A stretch of DNA of 55,337 bases, taken from positions 1 through 55,337 of the forward strand of contig CAIPYV010000033.1 in assembly GCA_903869365.1 (NCBI GenBank). Reading direction: 5' to 3'. This document shows, piece after piece, positions 10,697-53,288 of the stretch (position 1 is its first letter; every line of letters begins with the position of its first letter). The position numbers and the translations under genes are program-made. Source of the DNA: an uncultured Chlorobiaceae bacterium. GTDB taxonomy: Bacteria; Bacteroidota; Chlorobiia; Chlorobiales; Chlorobiaceae. The notes under the pieces are model-generated. The model was not told the DNA's origin. It did no database searches and was given only the letters and a program-made list of their open reading frames with translations.

Positions 10697-11844
10697 AACC
10701 AGCGTTTTGAAAATTTATAAGAGTGGCCCCAGCTTTGTTTCAGCCAGTGACCGACAATCGGCAGCGGGATAAACACCTCCCTGAGGCTGTTCTTAAAGAC
10801 AAAACCGGCGCCATCGCCCATATCCATCACACAAAGCACATTCAGATGAGCCTGATACCCCTTCATGGCGCCCTGCCGTCCCGAATGCTCTATGGCAGCA
10901 TTAAAAGCGGCATTCCCGGCCATTAACTCAGCAATGTGCCCCTGCTTGGCTTTCCATTCCGGGCCTTCAAGAGCAGCCGCATCGCCGACGGCATACCATC
11001 CCTTGACTCCCTCAATCCGGCAGAAATCATCAATACGGATAAACCCCGCACTGCTTTGAGGGAGGTTTGATTGCATGATGACGGCATCACCCTCACCGGC
11101 GGGGATAAACATGGTGAGGTCACTTTCAAGCTTACTCCGGTCTTCAAAAACAACACCATCCGGTTCAAACCGACTGATTTTTTTGCCGTAACGGGTCGCA
11201 ATGTTTTTGGCTTTTAACAGGGCTGCCATGGCCGAAAGAGCTTTTTTCCCCATTCGCGCACCAGGCTCGGCCATAGGCGCAAAAAAGGTCAACTCGAATT
11301 GGTCACGGATACCCAGTGTCTTCAGGTGATAATGCAGGTTGAAAAGCAGTTCAAATCCAGGGCCGCCACGCACCGCGCTGTTATCTTTGGGATTACCGCC
11401 AAATCCGAAGGCAATCCTGCCGCCTCCGCGAGCAACCAGCGTCTCAATCTTTGCCTTCAGGCGCAGCGACTCTTCAGGCTTGCCGCAAATGGAACAGGTA
11501 TGCTCAATACCCTCATGCTTCAGCTTCGCAGCGCCGAGCGCGACAACCACAAGAGCGGGGGAGTCATGAACACCCTCCTTTTCAAGGGTGACGGTTCGAG
11601 CGTCGCCATCAAGCCCGACAACCCTGTCGATCGTCAGAGAAAAACCGTGCTTGCGGGCCAGTTTCCGGAGCGGCATCGAAACATCCTTGAACGCCATGTT
11701 CCCGACCGGAATCCAGATCGCCAGCGGATAGATAAACAGATAGTCCCGTTCCGAAACCAGCTCAACCTCAAACCCTTGTTTCCGAAAAGCAATGGCAGAA
11801 GCAACACCGCCAATGCCACCACCCAGAATCAGCACCTTATGCAT
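10693..11844 (-). CDS. SQR-like FAD oxidoreductase, atypical
   Basis: 383 residues. Rossmann motif ILGGGIGGVASAIAF, FAD-binding GWYAVGDAAALEGP near residue 300, and a C-terminal segment (LREVFIPLPIVGHWLKQSW) like SQR membrane anchors. The CVMDMGDG motif keeps the C-terminal redox Cys region, and HTCSICGKPEES gives a CxxC near residue 116. The central Cys of SQR is replaced (SAVRGGPGFELLF), so chemistry may differ from classical sulfide oxidation. It lies 3 bp downstream of the osmC-like gene and overlaps the methyltransferase, forming osmC-flavoprotein-methyltransferase-FISUMP. The upstream operator dyad at 12344 suggests control by the CstR-like repressor. Confidence 0.75.
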   Translation of the reverse strand: MHKVLILGGGIGGVASAIAFRKQGFEVELVSERDYLFIYPLAIWIPVGNMAFKDVSMPLRKLARKHGFSLTIDRVVGLDGDARTVTLEKEGVHDSPALVVVALGAAKLKHEGIEHTCSICGKPEESLRLKAKIETLVARGGGRIAFGFGGNPKDNSAVRGGPGFELLFNLHYHLKTLGIRDQFELTFFAPMAEPGARMGKKALSAMAALLKAKNIATRYGKKISRFEPDGVVFEDRSKLESDLTMFIPAGEGDAVIMQSNLPQSSAGFIRIDDFCRIEGVKGWYAVGDAAALEGPEWKAKQGHIAELMAGNAAFNAAIEHSGRQGAMKGYQAHLNVLCVMDMGDGAGFVFKNSLREVFIPLPIVGHWLKQSWGHSYKFSKRWL

Positions 11845-46731: not shown

Positions 46732-46742
46732 ACCTGAACTAT

Positions 46743-47639
46743 TTATCCAAGCGAGCGCTCAATCTCCTCCCAGAACCTGCCATGACGGGAGACCTGAAGC
46801 TTGAATGCCGGTATTTTTTTTGCCATCTCGCAGCAATTATCAAACAGGTTTCGACGCATTAACCGCTGTTTCTTTTCATTGGCAATGTTCAGATATCTGA
46901 TAAGAAACTGGAGAGAGGATTCGTTCATAAAGGCGATGGATTCACCTTTGCCGACCCTCATGGATGCATCAATATCGGACTGCTCGATGAAAAAAATACC
47001 ATGAACCGGAATGGAGTGTTCTACATTCCAGGTCTTATCCGATATGCCATTCAGATACTCACTCCATGTCGGAAAAGGGTGTGCTCTGTATTGTCCTTCG
47101 CTGTCAACTAAAACAAGCACTTGATCGTCACAGAGAGCAGACCAGTTATTCGGCAATCGGCTACAGCAAGTCGATTTACCAGCACCATGTCCTCCGGCGA
47201 GAATGACACCCTTGCCATCATGTTCAATCAAGGCAGCATGGAACAGAGTTCCGCCAGATCGTATCGTTTCCCTGTATATAGGATACAAGGCTTTTTGCAT
47301 CGCTGCGATTGCATCTTTCTGGTTTGTGAAAGGTTTGATAGTACAAAGCACATCCTGAAGATGTTCATGGTACCAGAAGCAGAGTCTTCCCATATCATGG
47401 AGCTTCCATCCCTTTGCTGCTAATTCGTGTTGTGCACTTTGAGAAGATACATCATCATGCGAATCCTTGCTCATGGAACATATCAAGTTCCTGTTACTCT
47501 CAGTTGTACAGCTGTTATCAAGCCGCATAATAACGCCCATCTGTTCAATCCACGATTGCAGCTCTTCAAAGGTTGTCGAAATCTGCCAACGTAAGCCATT
47601 ACTCAATTGAAGTGCAAAAGCGTACTGTTTACTTCTCAC
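46743..47639 (-). CDS. HprK-like ATP-binding protein, ScmC-like
   Basis: 298 residues. P-loop ILAGGHGAGKSTCCSRL (149-165), followed by a Walker-B-like WSALCDDQVLVLVDSEG and HPFPTW, in the HPr-kinase/phosphorylase-like arrangement. The N-terminal 110 residues (SNGLRWQISTTFEELQSWIEQMGV, WYHEHLQDVLCTIKPF) are not HprK. I recall ScmC of the SynChlorMet peptide-modification cassette being like this; the two small Cys-rich peptides just upstream fit such a role. No radical-SAM partner in the window. Converges with cysN with only 11 bp between. Confidence 0.6.
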   Translation of the reverse strand: MRSKQYAFALQLSNGLRWQISTTFEELQSWIEQMGVIMRLDNSCTTESNRNLICSMSKDSHDDVSSQSAQHELAAKGWKLHDMGRLCFWYHEHLQDVLCTIKPFTNQKDAIAAMQKALYPIYRETIRSGGTLFHAALIEHDGKGVILAGGHGAGKSTCCSRLPNNWSALCDDQVLVLVDSEGQYRAHPFPTWSEYLNGISDKTWNVEHSIPVHGIFFIEQSDIDASMRVGKGESIAFMNESSLQFLIRYLNIANEKKQRLMRRNLFDNCCEMAKKIPAFKLQVSRHGRFWEEIERSLG

Positions 47640-47661
47640 AACTGCGATGCCAATGATTTAT

Positions 47662-47907
47662 TTAAAAATATTGAGAATACTGAATAATTGCACCGCTCGC
47701 GCATCTCCAATCCGATCTATTGGGTAGAACGCCAACGCCGCAGGCCGAGGCATCACCCCCACCAGTACAGTTTCCTGAAAAAATGTAATTCCCGTTATGG
47801 CAATCTTCCGCTATATCAGCACTACTTCCTAAAGGAAAACACAAAGCGCCTCCCAAAGCTTTGAGGCTATGAGCCAGATCGATGAGTACTGGCTTTTCCC
47901 ATTTCAT
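47662..47907 (-). CDS. Candidate RiPP precursor peptide 1
   Basis: 81 residues from ATG 47907 (MKWEKPVLIDLAHSLKALGG), chosen by match to peptide 2 and by GGAG upstream. Conserved leader MKWE-PVLIDLAH-LKALGGA, then core with five Cys at 23, 36, 47, 56 and 69, in conserved contexts (DCHNG, IFSG-C-GGGDA-AC, W-C). Ends 22 bp before the HprK-like gene. Paralogue at 48309. Possibly substrate of a modification system or secreted Cys-rich peptide. Confidence 0.6.
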   Translation of the reverse strand: MKWEKPVLIDLAHSLKALGGALCFPLGSSADIAEDCHNGNYIFSGNCTGGGDASACGVGVLPNRSDWRCASGAIIQYSQYF

Positions 47908-48308
47908 GATGAACTCCATTGTAATGATAAAGAGACAGAGTTGCCACCATACTCTAAGATATTTTTATAAAATATGTTGCAAGTATCGTTCCCGAATGAG
48001 TGATATAATCGATTAATGTCTATCCAGGATGAAGCAGTGGTCAGGGATACCTGCTGTAACTTGAAATGCTGAAATTGATTAAAGAGTTCGTTTGCTTTTT
48101 TTTGGATACGGACTCATATTCTGGGCGTTCTGATGTAAAAAATCCCCAACTGTTAGACGAGTTGTCTCAAATTGTCTCAATAAAAGTCAAGACAACTTGA
48201 TTCATAATACAATATTACTCTGGAAAGTCAAGGCTGAGACGGTGTCAAATGGGATATATTTTTTTTATCCAGGATAGCGGGAGTTCAAGTTTTATAGTGC
48301 AAAAAAGG
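47908..48308. other. Gap between peptide genes
   Basis: About 400 bp, no gene seen. It contains an 8-bp inverted repeat (AGTTGTCT at 48160-48167 and AGACAACT at 48190-48197) with an inner repeat of TTGTCTCAA; possibly a terminator of peptide 2 or promoter of peptide 1. Confidence 0.4.
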
Positions 48309-48566
48309 TTATACATAGGGTTTAATCCTTGGAGCAAGGTCAAAAATTGCCCCCACTGTGCAGTACCATATTGCTTCATCAGGTGCAGCGCCATTGGTGC
48401 AGGCCTCGGCATCCCCGCCCCCACTGCAAGTGCCTGAAAAAATGTAATACCCGTTATGGCAGTCTTGCGCAGCATCAGCGCTGCTTCCAACAGGCCAGCA
48501 AAACGCTCCTCCCAAAGCTTTGAGGCCATGAGCCAGATCAATGAGTACTGGGTTTTCCCATTTCAA
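48309..48566 (-). CDS. Candidate RiPP precursor peptide 2
   Basis: 85 residues. Starts with TTG at 48566 where copy 1 has ATG; no in-frame ATG upstream, but GGGGGA ribosome site is present. Leader nearly identical to copy 1 (MKWENPVLIDLAH). Same five Cys positions and gap-free alignment to residue about 72, then a diverged C-terminus. Upstream sequence is also duplicated. Likely a recent tandem duplication with altered expression. Confidence 0.55.
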   Translation of the reverse strand: MKWENPVLIDLAHGLKALGGAFCWPVGSSADAAQDCHNGYYIFSGTCSGGGDAEACTNGAAPDEAIWYCTVGAIFDLAPRIKPYV

Positions 48567-48801
48567 GATTCATCCCCCTGTAATGATAAGTTCTATATAT
48601 ATAATTCACAAAAAAGTGGCAAAACGCAACATATATGGCTTTATCCAACTCTAATGCATATCATTTATATATGTAGCTGCAAATATTATGCCTGAGGACG
48701 CAAAAAAAATTGATTGGACATCTTTTATCCGGGTGCTGTAAAATGTTCGGATCTGCAGGAAATTGGAGTGAAGTGATGAACAGAAAGGGTATGTAAAGAA
48801 G

Positions 48802-52485: not shown

Positions 52486-52884
52486 ATGGTGACAGAGAGT
52501 ATCGACAAGCAGATCAGGCAAGTGCTTGAACGGCACAACGCCATTCGTCTGGCGCTGTTGTTTGGTTCATTGGCCAAAGGTAGTGCTCATCATGACAGTG
52601 ATCTCGATCTGGCAGTCGGTGCCGATCATCCGCTCGACGTTCATGAAACAATCGAACTTATTTCAGATCTTGCAGAAGCGATAGGACGCCCTGTGGATTT
52701 GATTGATTTGTCAACTGTTGGCGAACCCTTGCTGGGCCAGATCATCGCAGGAGGAAGGCGAATAGTCGGTAGCAATACGCTCTTCGCTGAGTTGGTGCTC
52801 AAACATCTTTATAACCAGGAGGATTTTGTGCCTTATCAGAGAAGAATTCTGAAGGAAAGGAGGATAGCATGGATTGGCTGTTAA
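52486..52884 (+). CDS. mntA: MntA-type nucleotidyltransferase antitoxin
   Basis: 132 residues. Minimal nucleotidyltransferase: FGSLAKGSAHHDSDLDLAVG with GS 27-28 and Asp39/Asp41. In MntA-HepT systems it adds AMP to the HepT toxin. It overlaps hepT by 16 bp, in the normal order. Confidence 0.88.
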   Translation: MVTESIDKQIRQVLERHNAIRLALLFGSLAKGSAHHDSDLDLAVGADHPLDVHETIELISDLAEAIGRPVDLIDLSTVGEPLLGQIIAGGRRIVGSNTLFAELVLKHLYNQEDFVPYQRRILKERRIAWIGC

Positions 52885-53288
52885 TTGAACAGAAACTTGA
52901 GTCTTTGCGTCGATCAATACTCAGGGTTAAAGAGAAATGTCCCAAAAACGCCGATGTACTTGGCAACGATTACGATGCTCAGGATATTCTCTCCCTCAAC
53001 CTCACTCGTGCGGTTCAAATGTGTGTGGATATTGGAACACACCTTGTTGCAGATAGTGAGTTCCCCCCTCCGGGTACCATGGGAAAAACATTCGATATTT
53101 TATGTGAAGCCGGAATAATTAGCGAAAATTTGGCAGGTCGCATGAAAAAGGCGGTTGGATTTCGTAATCTCGCAGTTCATAACTATGAGACCATCAACTG
53201 GGCAATTGTTTTTTCTATCGCAACGGCACACCTTCAGGATTTTGAAGAGTTCGCTCAAAGCGTGGCACGACTGAACGATAATCGCTGA
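52869..53288 (+). CDS. hepT: HepT-type toxin (DUF86)
   Basis: 139 residues, helical HEPN RNase. RX4HXY motif at Arg99-His104-Tyr106 (RNLAVHNY), the catalytic motif. Follows mntA with overlap, a type VII toxin-antitoxin pair. Intact. The 149-bp gap after it has no gene. Confidence 0.9.
   Translation: MDWLLIEQKLESLRRSILRVKEKCPKNADVLGNDYDAQDILSLNLTRAVQMCVDIGTHLVADSEFPPPGTMGKTFDILCEAGIISENLAGRMKKAVGFRNLAVHNYETINWAIVFSIATAHLQDFEEFAQSVARLNDNR

Follow-up and report, generated by a model that had tools for sequence, protein, structure and literature searches.

A 2-kb insert with two precursor-like peptides and an ScmC protein in a Chlorobiaceae genome, a probable satellite of a SynChlorMet-type system

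Three genes in an inserted segment

The window analysed here, a stretch of 55,337 nucleotides, is the whole of contig C33 from the genome of an uncultured Chlorobiaceae bacterium. Three of its genes lie on the minus strand and are read as peptide 2 (48566-48309), then peptide 1 (47907-47662), then ScmC (47639-46743), with a gap of 22 nt between peptide 1 and ScmC:

46743..47639, minus strand: ScmC, an HprK/PEPCK-type P-loop protein and probable precursor-peptide kinase (298 aa; TIGR04249)
47662..47907, minus strand: precursor peptide 1, with MKWEKPVLIDLAHSLKALGG leader and five Cys-x(2,3)-Gly units (81 aa; ATG start with GGAG upstream; matched by the HMM built without the window peptides)
48309..48566, minus strand: precursor peptide 2, with KWENPVLIDLAHGLKALGG leader and five Cys-x(2,3)-Gly units (85 aa; TTG start with AGGGGG upstream; matched by the same HMM)
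46732..48795, no strand: inserted segment of about 2.06 kb that contains the three genes (blastn/tblastn against the syntenic loci L096 and L097; 6-7 bp at this place in relatives)

The first-pass annotation had likened the P-loop protein to ScmC of the SynChlorMet cassette, and a search with TIGR04249 places it in that family, with 273.5 bits over profile positions 1-292 of 292 against a curated cut-off of 125. The same annotation described two peptides with a near-identical leader and five conserved Cys. Their genes form a 248-nt direct repeat of 75% nucleotide identity, each peptide has exactly five Cys at matching positions, and the two are real paralogous genes, a tandem duplication. Peptide 1 would be 85 aa long if an upstream ATG were used. 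Nei-Gojobori estimates for peptide 1 against peptide 2 are dN 0.24 and dS 0.57 overall (dN/dS ~0.4), and dN 0.05 and dS 0.25 for the leader part (dN/dS ~0.2); this bias towards silent substitutions points to purifying selection on both peptides as protein. Further along the window (52486-53288, plus strand), adjacent small genes resemble, by eye, a pair of MNT nucleotidyltransferase and HEPN genes.

Judged by comparison with relatives, the locus is an insertion of about 2.06 kb between cysNC and a conserved ORF. Homology with two relatives (blastn, tblastn; L096 and L097) extends as far as the cysNC stop codon (46731) and is found again from 48796 onwards, and both have an empty site of 6-7 bp between cysNC and the next ORF, within a common order of sulfite reductase, cysH, cysD, cysNC, a 102-aa ORF and SulP. 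The 102-aa ORF adjoins SulP in eight further relatives as well. One of the empty-site relatives (G037) has a full Scm cassette of its own and the other (G080) has no ScmC. Neither terminal repeats nor a target-site duplication were found at the ends of the insert, and no recombinase was seen there; the window contains no tRNA, an Rfam search returned no match and no terminator-like site was found.

Partner loci in the genome and its relatives

No radical-SAM or PqqD gene of the Scm family lies in the window, as had been remarked at first pass, and the genome search suggested there located these partners on another contig, C118. Across the genome (2.93 Mb in 136 contigs, 99.99% complete), one ScmD (129 bits), one ScmE (628) and two ScmF (604 and 597) exceed their cut-offs, all of them on C118, and no others were found elsewhere in it. 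The gene order on C118 is ScmD, ScmE, ScmF, precursor, ScmC, precursor, ScmF, S26-type peptidase and ABC exporter. On its other side the cassette is flanked by a PF14907 nucleotidyltransferase-like gene. Both precursors, MKLKW(Q/E)KPKLVDLADGLRAVG..., stand beside ScmC and have the window leader in common (MKLKWEKPKLVDLADGLRAVG) together with a Cys-x(2,3)-Gly core. The C118 ScmC lies in one open frame (L022:12141-13283, plus strand) with an 80-residue precursor-like extension, MKWKIPLLIDL...CFNTGCANEKACISG, which has Cys-x(2,3)-Gly-like units and is joined to ScmC with no ATG in between; the frame represents a fusion of precursor and ScmC or, alternatively, a precursor gene whose stop was lost.

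A third locus, on contig C77, consists of ScmC and, separated from it by 13 nt, a single precursor (...LWEKPELKAL...). The locus starts within ~55 nt of a tRNA-Lys, where synteny with three relatives ends:

L024:8262-8336, plus strand: tRNA-Lys beside the C77 satellite

ScmD, ScmE and ScmF are absent beside the C77 ScmC, on a contig that ends ~400 nt past the precursor. They thus adjoin ScmC on C118, and neither at C77 nor in the window, and the genome holds five precursors and three ScmC over three loci.

ScmC exceeds its cut-off in 4 of the 98 genomes of the class. The other three, all of the Chlorobium group, have ScmD, ScmE, ScmF, an S26-type peptidase and a PF14907-type gene (found by Pfam in two and by BLAST in the third), with a W-x-x-P, Cys-x(2,3)-Gly peptide in the vicinity. 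The leader that was to be sought near Scm genes in other loci and genomes is therefore present, in its W-x-x-P form, on C118, on C77 and in all three of these genomes. One of the cassettes, in G036, has a tandem pair of divergent ScmC (L044:9757-10674 and 10828-11739, minus strand). The founding SynChlorMet cassettes are those of Syntrophobacter and Methanocella. Among 394 Bacteroidota genomes no ScmC was found outside the genus, and none was found in viral contigs or plasmids; a scan of genome contigs returned only three already-known Chlorobium-group loci and two distant HprK-like matches.

Precursor sequences and the ScmC protein

The window peptides follow the leader consensus (M/L)KWE(K/N)PVLIDLAHxLKALGG, and Gly stands at +3 or +4 after 10 of their 10 Cys, a stronger regularity than the first-pass annotation had described. 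Composition-preserving shuffles of these peptides gave a mean of 2.6 such Cys, and 0 of 20,000 reached 10. The rule extends to 38 of the 39 Cys in the eight precursors found in four genomes (shuffles: mean 11, maximum 23 in 20,000 trials), the sole exception being a Cys that precedes the leader of the G038 peptide.

The peptides had been put forward as candidate precursors, which agrees with the leader and core that they have in common with cassette precursors and with profile searches. An HMM trained on the C118, C77 and G037 precursors only was run against 6,365 six-frame segments, and its best matches beyond its own training set are the two window peptides (E 2.6e-5 for peptide 1 and 6e-4 for peptide 2). 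In the reciprocal direction, a profile built solely from these two recovers the precursors of C118 and G037. A search of the 98 genomes with a precursor profile gave six strong matches, every one beside ScmC; as this profile included the window peptides, its value is that nothing strong was found elsewhere.

The first-pass statement that the precursor of the cassette was undefined when the cassette was named needs correction, given that NCBIfam already has a model for it, TIGR04252 (SCM_precur_ScmA), with a curated cut-off of 35 bits. Peptide 1 (14.5 bits, E 0.031), peptide 2 (10 bits, E 0.79), the C77 precursor (17.4 bits) and the G036 peptide (21.8 bits) all fall below this cut-off, and the C118 precursors have no match to the model. 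The low scores mark the peptides as divergent relatives that the current model leaves unannotated. By the HMM comparisons the peptides are homologous to cassette precursors, although they are not ScmA by TIGR04252.

In the ScmC protein, H134, K155, D171 and D172 are invariant among seven ScmC sequences, down to 28% identity, and align with the His, P-loop Lys and Asp-Asp of HPr kinase (1jb1). The similarity to HPr kinase covers ~50 residues and is weak (E 0.025). We also considered membership of the HPr(Ser) kinase/phosphatase family itself and rejected it, given that TIGR00679 gives 15.1 bits against a cut-off of 240; ScmC is related to that family and stands outside it. The AlphaFold model of ScmC matches the C-terminal (nucleotide-binding) half of PEPCK with a Z of ~10 and an rmsd of 3.5 over 158 residues, a match of moderate weight because the mean pLDDT of the model is 67. 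The matches listed by Foldseek and VIA-align are PEPCK chains and not HPr kinases. The HPr kinase fold is shared with the nucleotide-binding half of PEPCK, and the absence of HprK among the matches listed is no evidence against kinship. In lasso-precursor kinases the same His-Lys-Asp-Asp set is catalytic or required, and it is the precursor, not yet cyclised, that they take as substrate (PMC9266682). Taken together, the invariant residues, this precedent and the PEPCK-type fold make it likely, by analogy, that ScmC is a precursor kinase.

A probable satellite locus and its alternatives

We consider it probable that the window holds a satellite locus of a SynChlorMet-type RiPP system, which supplies precursors and its own ScmC and depends on ScmD, ScmE and ScmF in trans. 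Given that the satellites carry none of these three, it is the likeness of the leaders alone that suggests maturation in trans, and the radical enzymes of C118 most likely finish the window peptides. The short leader, with its W-E-(K/N)-P-x-L motif, would probably be recognised by the single PqqD-like ScmD on C118; the radical-SAM/SPASM enzymes ScmE and ScmF of that contig, acting in trans, would cross-link the core cysteines; ScmC would probably phosphorylate a Ser, Thr or Tyr of the neighbouring precursor; and cleavage and export of a presumably active product would fall to the S26-type peptidase and ABC exporter encoded in the central cassette. The reliance of peptide 2 on a TTG start counts against this reading, as do the unreached TIGR04252 cut-off, the weak similarity of ScmC to HPr kinase, the pLDDT of its model and the window cores, which have no C-terminal Ser, the residue phosphorylated in lasso precursors.

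The locus had also been described as split or reduced, and it is the first of these that fits better, in view of the cleanly inserted segment and the empty site that relatives show. If it were instead the decaying remnant of a complete cassette, with ScmD, ScmE and ScmF lost and the peptides no longer matured, the lack of a radical-SAM or PqqD gene nearby, the TTG start and the diverged cores would be accounted for. We regard this as unlikely, given that all three ORFs are intact, dN/dS is ~0.4 for the peptides and ~0.2 for their leader, and every one of the ten Cys-x(2,3)-Gly units is retained; moreover, the insert is compact, tblastn of ScmD, ScmE and ScmF against the window finds no Scm gene fragments, and C77 is a second locus of like make-up. 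Still less credible, and in our view very improbable, is that the peptides have no part in peptide maturation and are instead small, Cys-rich proteins with a metal-binding or redox role. Such proteins would suit the Cys content of peptides whose modification is only predicted, and the sulfate-assimilation genes next door, but these neighbours are core genes that flank the insertion site, and the peptides adjoin ScmC at every locus found and have their leader in common with the precursors of the full cassette.

A separate question is what ScmC does within a satellite. It could, as an adaptor or a nucleotide-driven chaperone, bring the precursor to ScmE and ScmF and use its P-loop for binding only; beyond the P-loop region its sequence has only weak similarity to true HPr kinases, it accompanies the precursor where the other enzymes are absent, and on C118 it is in frame with a leader-like segment. 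We find this doubtful, because the catalytic His, the P-loop Lys and both Asp are invariant across the seven divergent ScmC sequences and the kinases of lasso systems, which share this motif, have precursors as their substrates. The satellite reading, with ScmC as a likely kinase, might be taken a step further to a two-tier RiPP system, in which the central ScmD, ScmE and ScmF read a common leader and self-contained 2-kb satellites, each with precursors and a dedicated HprK-like kinase, have been inserted around the genome. We offer this extension tentatively, at somewhat less than even chances; if true, the kinase and not the radical enzymes would be the substrate-specific partner.

Compared with SynChlorMet as defined by its models (TIGR04248 ScmD, TIGR04249 ScmC, TIGR04250 ScmE, TIGR04251 ScmF and TIGR04252 ScmA), the system agrees in having ScmC here and the other three above cut-off elsewhere in the genome, and the weak ScmA-model matches fall on the right genes. 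It differs in that the window is without ScmD, ScmE and ScmF, the precursors stay below the ScmA cut-off and the system is spread over three loci. In an open-access library searched at full text, no paper mentions SynChlorMet or its TIGR numbers. To its curated protein models can now be added concrete precursor sequences (eight, from four genomes), a core rule, Cys-x(2,3)-Gly, together with a defined leader.

The HprK-like lasso-precursor kinases (PadeK, ThcoK, SyanK and PsmK) resemble ScmC in their His-Lys-Asp-Asp set within a P-loop/PEPCK-like fold and in a gene that adjoins the precursor. The PF14907 nucleotidyltransferase-like gene of C118 loosely recalls the psmK/psmN pair. Unlike lasso systems, however, neither a lasso cyclase nor a B protein was noted in the cassette, the Scm precursors are without a C-terminal Ser and the partners are radical-SAM/SPASM enzymes.

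For the layout, the closest precedent is that of the prochlorosins, in which scattered ProcA precursors are served by one synthetase, ProcM (PMC10783134). Both have a conserved leader, divergent Cys-bearing cores scattered in one genome and one central enzyme set. The prochlorosins differ in their lanthipeptide synthetase chemistry and in genes that scatter alone or with lanM, whereas each Scm satellite carries its own ScmC. This dedicated kinase-like protein suggests that ScmC is the precursor-specific partner, and it would be an uncommon gene economy for precursors to come with their own kinase-like partner while the radical-SAM enzymes are shared.

Sactipeptides and ranthipeptides likewise combine Cys-rich cores with SPASM-domain radical-SAM enzymes, but ScmE and ScmF score far below the cut-offs of the known maturase models. 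The same genome has another cluster (L028, G000:C43:26000-37269) in which a PqqD-like gene accompanies three radical-SAM/SPASM genes, all of non-Scm families, and at a further locus (L027, G000:C116:12000-22000) PqqD-like and HprK-related genes lie close together and resemble an HPr-rel-A or lasso-type cluster.
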